Assembly: GCA_028287465.1 (NCBI GenBank) | Contig: JAQBPO010000094.1 | Coordinates: forward strand, 1 to 63,396 | Length of the DNA stretch: 63,396 bases | Source of the DNA: Fibrobacterota bacterium | Lineage (GTDB): Bacteria; Fibrobacterota; Fibrobacteria; UBA11236 | Reading direction: 5' to 3' | Part shown: one piece after another, positions 57,545 through 62,988 of the stretch | Layout of the letters: every line of letters begins with the position of its first letter | Numbering within the stretch: the first letter of the stretch is position 1 | The notes under the pieces: model-generated | Seen by the model: the letters and a program-made list of their open reading frames with translations, nothing else | Database searches by the model: none | What the model was told of the DNA's origin: nothing | Position numbers and translations under genes: made by a program

Positions 57545-57555
57545 CCCCCGACCAC

Positions 57556-57785
57556 CCCCTGAAATCGCGCCCCAACTCCCTGAAGCCCAAACCCGCCGCG
57601 CGCATTCCACCGCAAAGCCCCACCCTAACCGCGGCCCACCTGCCCCCTGAAATCGCCCCAACTCCCTCAAGCCCAAACCCGCCGCGCGCATTCCACCGCA
57701 AAGCCCCACCGCACCCGCGGCCCCAACCGACCCCTGAACCCGCGGCCCAACTCCCTGAAGCCCAGACCCCGCCCCGCGGCGCCAC
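57556..57785. repeat. 88-bp GC-rich tandem repeats
   Basis: Unit 1 (57556-57643, 88 bp) and unit 2 (57644-57730, 87 bp) both begin CCCCTGAAATCGC and share ACTCCCT-AAGCCCAAACCC and the block GCGCGCATTCCACCGCAAAG. A diverged third copy starts at 57731 (CCCCTGAACCCGCGG) and a fragment at about 57787. No spacers, so this is not CRISPR-like. Frames reading through are repetitive and not credible as genes. Confidence 0.8.
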
Positions 57786-57870
57786 GCCCCCTGGATCGCG
57801 CCCCCGCAGCCCGCCCCCGAAACGCAGATACAATCCGGCCACAATCAGAAGGGCACCCGTCGGATAAGAC

Positions 57871-58144
57871 GGTTCCCGGGCGGGGGGCGGGGTTGGAGGC
57901 GAATCGCCCCGCGTCGACGCCGTGGCCTCGTCCGCAGCGCCGCCGAACCGCCAGGGCGCTCGGGCCGGGGCTCCATTCAAGGGGCGCCGGGGAGCGTCCG
58001 CGCGACCCAGGGCGTGGCGCGTCCGTTCGCTCCCCAAGCCATCGACCCACCGCGAATCCCTTGAATCGAGCCAAAAACCCACCGTATCGCCCGGCCTCGA
58101 CGCGGGGCGCCCTAGCCGCAAACCCCGGCCCCCGCCCGGGAACC
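57871..58144. repeat. 274-bp nested inverted repeat
   Basis: Outer arms 57871-57894 and 58121-58144 match in 23 of 24 positions. Inner pairs nest in order: 57905-57917 with 58097-58109 (13/13), 57969-57983 with 58058-58072 (14/15) and 57989-57996 with 58028-58035 (8/8). The centre is 57997-58027. The whole can fold into one long branched hairpin or cruciform. No gene is visible inside it. Confidence 0.8.
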
Positions 58145-58180
58145 AGCCCACCCCACAGGATCCCCCAGATAAAACAGGAT

Positions 58181-58202
58181 TATATCTAAGTTTCAAGATA
58201 TA
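58181..58202. promoter_or_regulatory. Palindromic operator-like site before the ArsR-methyltransferase gene
   Basis: TATATCT (58181-58187) and AGATATA (58196-58202) are perfect inverted arms; a further GATAT follows at 58205-58209. The AT-rich palindrome lies just upstream of the -10 box of an ArsR-family gene and is a good candidate for autoregulation. Confidence 0.55.
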
Positions 58203-58206
58203 TTGA

Positions 58207-58212
58207 TATAAT
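58207..58212 (+). promoter_or_regulatory. Consensus -10 box TATAAT, six bases before ATG
   Basis: TATAAT then CTCCCT then ATG 58219. The sequence CTCCCT cannot act as a ribosome-binding site, so a leaderless message is strongly suggested. It overlaps the palindrome's right flank. Confidence 0.6.
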
Positions 58213-58218
58213 CTCCCT

Positions 58219-59190
58219 ATGACCAAGATCCTCCAAATCGACGCCCTTACCGGCGTGTTCAAACTCCTCAGCGACGAAACCCGCCTGCGCATCCTCTGCG
58301 CCCTCAGCGAATCCGAACTCGCCGTCGGCGAACTCCAGAAGATCCTCAGCCTCGGCCAGAGCACCCTGTCCACCCAGCTCGGCCTCCTCAAGGAACAGGA
58401 CTTGGTCGCCAGCCGCAAGGAAGGCCAGAAGGTCCTTTACCGCCTCCCGCGCAACGGCAGGGAGGATCCCAAGCTCGACATCATCGAGAACGCCTTGCAG
58501 AGCATGCCCGCCGCGAAGTGGTACGCCAGGGACATGCGCAGCCTGAAGAAGGTATTGCAGGAGCGCAGCGACCGGTCCCGCGAATTCTTCAATTCCCAGA
58601 CCGTGCAGAACATGCCTTCGCCCGGCCAGACCTGGCGCGCCCTCTGCAGCGGTCTCATAGGCCTCATCCGCAACCAACGCATCGTCGATCTGGGCTGCGG
58701 CAACGGCCGTCTCGCCATCCTGCTGGCCCAATCGGGCAACGCGGTCACGGGCATAGACAGCAGCGAAGAGCAGATCCGCCTCGCCCGCGAGAACGCGGGC
58801 CTCTTTCCCGGGGCCGAGGGCGGCGCAACGGTCCGCAAAGGCCCGGACTTCCTGTATGCGCCCATGGAGGATACGGGCCTGCCTGCCGGCGCCTTCGATG
58901 CCGTCATTCTATCGCAGTCCCTGCACCATGCCGCCAAGCCCAAGGAGGCCATCGCGGAATCGCACCGCCTTCTCGCCACCGGAGGCCGCATCCTGATCCT
59001 GGACCTGCTCGCCCATGGCGAGGAATGGATGCGCACCAGGTTCGGCGACTTCTGGCTGGGTTTTACCCTTGCCGACCTGGAAACCTGGCTCAAGGAGAGC
59101 GGGTTCACGGCCATCCAAACCGAAATCACCGGCCCGACCAAGGACTACCCGGAGATTGAAGGGTTGTTGGTGCAGGCGGAGAAAAAGTGA
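58219..59190 (+). CDS. ArsR-type regulator fused to a SAM-dependent methyltransferase domain
   Basis: Residues 1-85 form an ArsR winged helix (LTGVFKLLSDETRLRILCAL, VGELQKILSLGQSTLSTQLG, VLYRLP). Residues of about 130-320 form a Methyltransf_11-type domain with IVDLGCGNGRLAILLAQSG as the SAM loop and AVILSQSLHHAAKPKEAI. This architecture, next to metH, matches SahR-like regulators of the methionine cycle that respond to S-adenosylhomocysteine. The methyltransferase fold would then act as a ligand sensor, though activity is possible. It lies 75 bp upstream of metH on the same strand. Confidence 0.85.
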   Translation: MTKILQIDALTGVFKLLSDETRLRILCALSESELAVGELQKILSLGQSTLSTQLGLLKEQDLVASRKEGQKVLYRLPRNGREDPKLDIIENALQSMPAAKWYARDMRSLKKVLQERSDRSREFFNSQTVQNMPSPGQTWRALCSGLIGLIRNQRIVDLGCGNGRLAILLAQSGNAVTGIDSSEEQIRLARENAGLFPGAEGGATVRKGPDFLYAPMEDTGLPAGAFDAVILSQSLHHAAKPKEAIAESHRLLATGGRILILDLLAHGEEWMRTRFGDFWLGFTLADLETWLKESGFTAIQTEITGPTKDYPEIEGLLVQAEKK

Positions 59191-59212
59191 AGAAGAGAAA
59201 GATTTTGCAATC

Positions 59213-59229
59213 TGCAAATTGAAAATTGC
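59213..59229 (+). repeat. AT-rich short repeat TGCAAATTGAAAATTGC
   Basis: One-base variant of 46621-46637 (minus strand), with similarity continuing to about 59240. It occupies most of the gap before metH and contains the palindrome CAAATTGAAAATTGCAATTTG. Confidence 0.55.
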
Positions 59230-59265
59230 AATTTGAAAAATTCCTACCAATACTAAGGACCAACC

Positions 59266-62988
<3,723 letters not shown>

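Follow-up and report, generated by a model that had tools for sequence, protein, structure and literature searches.

MITEs and similar repeats such as ERIC and Correia have common terminal inverted repeats, and in MITEs there are also target duplications. Bidirectional terminators are hairpins that lie between convergent genes and can be used on both strands, and fungal mitochondria have dispersed, GC-rich double-hairpin elements that are smaller, simpler and organellar, with variable stems that change together. In nematomorph mitochondria there are long perfect palindromes in coding sequence, which vary in sequence between species with the identity of the arms kept, and for these repeat conversion has been proposed (PMC6649704). 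REPs of the GTAG/RAYT type are 20-40 bp long, mostly with stems of 6-9 bp that are shared by the family, have frequent G-T pairs and are linked to a Y1 transposase (PMC3733652).

The palindrome at positions 57871-58144 of the window (the whole stretch of 63,396 nucleotides that was analysed, contig C47 of the 5.8-Mb genome G000) is one copy of a family of large hairpins that are dispersed between the genes of one uncultured Fibrobacterota genus. The family is apparently undescribed. It resembles the fungal mitochondrial elements, in being GC-rich and dispersed with stems that change together, and MITEs, ERIC and Correia in size range, dispersal and hairpin folding, but unlike MITEs the terminal arms are what the copies have least in common, and a common duplication was not seen among the copies, which are old and diverged. 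As with bidirectional terminators there is a hairpin between convergent genes that could be used on both strands, but the present elements are much larger, have a conserved core and no U-tracts, and are found at only some tens of sites. They are like the nematomorph palindromes in that sequence differs and arm identity is kept (PMC6649704), but are intergenic with a conserved core, whereas the nematomorph palindromes are coding and have no such core. The likeness to REP and BIME lies in their being palindromes scattered through intergenic DNA, where they occupy gene ends and the gaps of convergent or tandem gene pairs, and in the roles proposed, which are termination, mRNA stability and supercoiling (PMC3733652). 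The placement is indeed that of REP/RAYT elements, being intergenic and at gene ends with divergent pairs avoided. However at 194-291 bp, and with copy-specific stems of 22-32 bp in which G-T is rare, the present elements differ from REPs, and the Y1 domain (PF01797) is absent from the carrier genomes G000, G002, G003 and G004 and present only in G001.

The first-pass annotation had described four nested pairs of arms in a gene-free region, and this proved accurate. The outer stem P1 has 24 bp with one mismatch, P2 has 18 nt with one mismatch and a perfect run within it, P3 has 15 nt with one mismatch, and the innermost pair GGGGAGCG/CGCTCCCC is at 57989-57996/58028-58035; no credible gene was found inside the element. 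The element also folds far better than chance: with 100 dinucleotide shuffles as the reference, a 374-nt stretch gives z = -8.1 on the + strand and -8.8 on the - strand. When locally shuffled DNA was scanned for arms of 18 bp or more separated by 100-330 bp, there was 1 hit in 1.16 Mb. The features are as follows.

57545..57870, + strand: C-rich, G-poor spacer from the stop of the GyrI-like gene to the element, with direct repeats of about 86-89 bp at 57546-57778
57871..58144, + strand (orientation by core motifs): whole element, with nested arms, a G002 orthologue with compensatory changes and a covariance model match at 57871-58144
57871..57894, + strand: 5' arm of outer stem P1, G-rich, 24 bp with 1 mismatch with 58121-58144
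57905..57922, + strand: 5' side of stem P2, 94% complementary to 58092-58109
57918..57958, + strand: extra side hairpin of the consensus fold, in the window copy and its G002 orthologue, absent from most other copies
57969..57983, + strand: 5' side of stem P3, 1 mismatch with 58058-58072
57993..58031, + strand: tip hairpin, better conserved than any other domain among several family subgroups (tip alignment A5; match to the tip-only model)
58058..58072, + strand: 3' side of stem P3, partner of 57969-57983
58073..58089, + strand: unpaired motif AAAAACCCACCGTATCG, kept in the G002 orthologue
58092..58109, + strand: 3' side of stem P2, partner of 57905-57922
58121..58144, + strand: 3' arm of outer stem P1, C-rich, matching 9 of the 10 left-arm changes versus G002

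The spacer between the arms is 226 in the window copy and 215 in its G002 orthologue, as against typically 165-176 elsewhere in the family. The neighbouring repeats of about 88 bp are real, with spacings of 86 and 89, and the ArsR-metH locus does lie on the right, the ArsR-methyltransferase gene starting at 58219 and metH at 59266. The window copy is atypical in its neighbours, as the GyrI-like gene on the left reads toward it across a 326-bp spacer and the ArsR gene starts 75 bp to the right. Just upstream of the ArsR-methyltransferase gene there is an AT-rich inverted repeat GATTATATC/GATATAATC (58205-58213 with 58178-58186), and upstream of this gene the sequence ATATATC...GATATATTGATAT is similar at all 5 of the same-genus loci examined; the repeat at 58178-58213 is probably the ArsR operator/promoter.

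The sister species G002 (JAQBPN010000046.1) has an element of about 70% identity at the orthologous site (L024 3645-3921), upstream of its ArsR-methyltransferase gene, and at the ArsR-methyltransferase locus of G001, G003 and G004 the element is absent from that site. As orthologous copies are held by separate MAGs, an assembly artefact, the possibility raised against the element when it was first noted, is very unlikely. The alignment of the two sequences was corrected by hand, and 59 of the 80 consensus pairs have stayed as they were, with 19 altered on both sides and 2 on one side only, in a consensus structure that was fitted to these same two sequences. The outer stem with slid controls thus gives the cleaner number: 10 left and 9 right positions have changed and 9 of these coincide, compared with 1-4 in the slid controls (p = 8e-6). 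The arms vary together in the sister species, as the covariation check proposed with the annotation required, and the compensatory changes support the helices. The suggestion of a structured RNA gains in part from this, in that the nested fold has been kept by compensatory change in G002.

Further copies had also been thought worth seeking, and 27 are now known, dispersed through about 2.0 Mb of DNA of the genus (1.16 Mb of G000, 0.45 Mb of G002, 0.21 Mb of G003 and 0.08 Mb of G004). They were found with a covariance model made from the window and G002 sequences, followed by an inverted-repeat scan around the matches; the two-sequence model gave extra copies in G000 and G002 and no match in the remaining 99 genomes searched. 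A plain nucleotide search gave no additional copies, and would thus wrongly have implied a single-copy element. In contigs chosen without regard to hits the density is about 1 per 100 kb (3 in about 308 kb of G000 and 4 in about 389 kb of G002), or roughly some tens of copies per genome with a two- to threefold uncertainty. Samples of G005 (78 kb), G001 (40 kb), the neighbouring genus (about 200 kb) and Fibrobacter-like members of the class (100 kb) gave none, a thin sampling that is weak evidence of absence. At gathering score, Rfam covariance models matched neither the window nor any of ten copy-bearing loci, and the plasmid and phage records gave no match to the element. The Rfam model for 6S RNA has no match in the genus, and a sub-threshold match only in the class relative G012.

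As a held-out test, a 40-nt model of the tip only, blind to the arms, was searched across the genus. Its matches outside the training set include one at G002:C100 (E = 1e-4) with 26-bp perfect arms, a weak one at G003:C6 (E = 0.8) with 27-bp perfect arms, and one at G000:C50 (E = 1e-5) with a truncated core and 13-bp perfect arms. The 18 other weak matches (E 0.036 or more) have no arms, as chance matches would give. The truncated copy (G000:C50:941-1104, L218) has a core without its 5' half, with the 13-bp perfect arms directly flanking what remains, and its gene neighbour matches that of the intact copy at G002:C2:12792.

The copies are about 194-291 bp in size, with a GC-rich outer stem of 22-32 bp and a structured core of 145-237 nt between the arms. 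The sequence of the outer stem is usually particular to each copy and arm sequences are mostly unrelated between copies, yet among 754 arm pairs in the 27 copies there are only 16 mismatches, 4 of them G-U, and 14 of the 27 have mismatch-free arms, although the arm finder penalises all mismatches equally and so somewhat favours clean arms. As each copy's own stem is almost perfectly matched, the arms must have been kept in step while the sequence changed. In three pairs of copies, insertions or deletions of 1, 3 and about 5 bp have altered both arms alike, in mirror image. The 5' arm is G-rich in 25 of the 27 copies, and this is so on both strands, since the arms are palindromic. In the two closest same-genome pairs the arms are 60-67% and the cores 82-88% identical; in four orthologous comparisons the figures are 60-78% for arms and 54-76% for cores, so that in these the arms do not consistently change faster than the cores.

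The copies are too divergent for a single alignment of all cores to be workable. Stem-base loops (AUCAGGCGnAG ... GGAGCCGyCA) are common to many cores and the tip hairpin to several subgroups, and ACCCA occurs on the oriented strand, in the core's 3' half, in 16 of 27 copies and on the other strand in 1 of 27, a contrast that is somewhat favoured by orientation having been set partly from core similarity.

Orientation was fixed from the cores before the genes were viewed, and a simple coding score served to call genes. The right end lies no more than 60 bp from the stop codon of an inward-reading gene in 21 of the 27 copies, and the left neighbour usually reads toward the element too, ending 170-700 bp away. 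The arrangement of neighbours, for 26 copies, is convergent in 15, tandem in 10 and divergent in 1; in G000 it is convergent for 8 of 13 copies, whereas 15% of gene pairs overall are so arranged (p = 2e-4). G003 has one site with two copies back to back, each near the stop of its own convergent gene. The flanking genes include conserved ones, by sequence inspection putatively RseP-, FtsK- and CCA-transferase-like.

The reading that we prefer, if tentatively, is that of a folded 3'-end element, a terminator or 3'-end protector that is possibly bidirectional, with its stem kept complementary by templated correction between the arms. A flanking gene would be transcribed beyond its stop codon, and the RNA would fold into a very stable rod that would end or protect the transcript. 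The outer stem is palindromic and thus could act on transcripts from either side. Placement at gene ends, the conserved fold and the small number of G-U pairs in the outer stem agree with such a hairpin. Use on either strand would fit both the tendency to lie between convergent genes and the scarcity of G-U, because a G-U pair is an A-C mismatch on the opposite strand. The stem sequence would be nearly free to change, with changes in one arm being transferred to its partner, probably through template switching as the DNA replicates (quasi-palindrome correction), while stems that break would be lost to selection. Template switching is able both to form hairpin stems and to preserve them (PMC8794818), and with this and the nematomorph case as precedents (PMC8794818, PMC6649704) we infer that the mirrored arms arise by template switching or gene conversion.

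There are qualifications to such a role. No U-tract was found after the arms on either strand, either by scan or in T content, which is at background, so by this criterion the element is no ordinary intrinsic terminator; transcription would have to be ended in some other way, such as by Rho or the collision of converging polymerases, or the role would be 3'-end protection. Neither is it simply symmetrical, because the conserved motifs are on one strand, nor a general terminator, because only some tens of genes per genome have a copy. It also counts against a 3'-end role that the window copy and its orthologue sit 75-80 bp before the start of the right-hand gene, and against the reading as a whole that in orthologous pairs the arms show no consistent excess of change over the core.

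The family bears on how long stems stay perfectly paired as their sequence changes. It provides many natural replicates in each genome, orthologues in different species and indels mirrored in both arms, so that templated arm correction becomes separable from selection for pairing. The family is thus a good test case for the maintenance of hairpins by genomes. If the 3'-end role is true it would also be an unusual means of separating convergent genes, in a little-studied phylum. It is conceivable, but we would not presume it, that this is a novel kind of chromosomal element, conserved in its fold and a small core, with the long stem rewritten in each copy by templated exchange between its own arms, and that it acts at transcript ends in both directions, above all for convergent genes.

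The main rival to the 3'-end role, which we regard as possible but doubtful, is a non-autonomous mobile or selfish palindromic element of the REP or MITE kind, spread by an enzyme acting on folded single-stranded DNA and found at gene ends as the least harmful insertion sites. The copies are dispersed and numerous, similarity between copies of the same genome reaches 88% over the core and some of the left flank, presence or absence differs among species at the ArsR locus, and REPs too often sit between convergent genes (PMC1525189). However the arms are not common to the copies, a consistent target duplication was not found (the copies being old and diverged), no recent near-identical copies were seen, three sites are occupied at the same place in two species, and G000, G002, G003 and G004 lack the Y1 transposase. 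The miniature inverted-repeat element of the first-pass annotation fares likewise, holding for dispersal and copy number but not for common terminal arms, and with no common target-site duplication seen in these old and diverged copies. That there is a family, that its copies lie at the 3' ends of genes and that arms differ among them could not be seen from the window alone. A mobile origin and a 3'-end role are compatible, as the element may have spread as a repeat and then been kept for 3' ends.

An independent family of structured non-coding RNA genes, with their own promoters and a trans-acting role, would suit the conserved multi-helix fold, the tip and the one-strand motif, but is unlikely in view of the strict linkage to gene 3' ends and the lack of an Rfam match, and a simple consensus scan, which does not cover other promoter types, found no promoter-like site at the window copy. 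It is quite unlikely that the element acts as a DNA-level site, a topoisomerase site or a cruciform such as the first-pass annotation had also suggested, absorbing supercoiling between convergent genes: the almost purely Watson-Crick outer stems and the preference for convergent genes are as expected for this, but a core of 145-237 bp between the arms makes cruciform extrusion hard, the core motifs and internal loops are strand-specific, and copies between tandem genes are common. Integron recombination sites (attC) likewise follow stop codons and have a fold conserved above sequence, and an integron integrase scores above the curated TIGR02249 cut-off in G000, G001, G002 and G003, but this identity is largely refuted and extremely improbable, as RYYYAAC/GTTRRRY ends (R-boxes) are present in 0 of 27 copies, the palindromic sites beside intI on G000:C13 have GTATAACA...TGTTATAC ends unlike those of the elements, the copies follow conserved genes rather than cassette arrays, and G004 holds elements with no integrase hit found above the cut-off. 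The integron of G000 is at C13:1-2900 (L137), with an integrase over the TIGR02249 cut-off, attC-like sites and AT-rich cassette-like DNA alongside.

With regard to the C-rich spacer, we considered it as a candidate Rho-loading region of the left gene. It is C-richer than other 3' flanks in G000 and beside convergent genes, but the spacer at G000:C23 is also C-rich, with no gene reading into it. The repeats at 57546-57778 are members of a dispersed C-rich repeat (CCGCGCGCATTCCA...GCCCCAC) that adjoins several other copies of the element (G000:C76:175092-175350, C1:23346-23405, C13, C78 and C23; G003:C40:203607-203731). A separate AT-rich dispersed repeat of TTGCAAATTGAAAATTGCAA type, often in inverted pairs, is at about 59200-59245 in the window and also at G003:C40:48287-48445 and 83281-83440 and at G001:C169:26399-26542.
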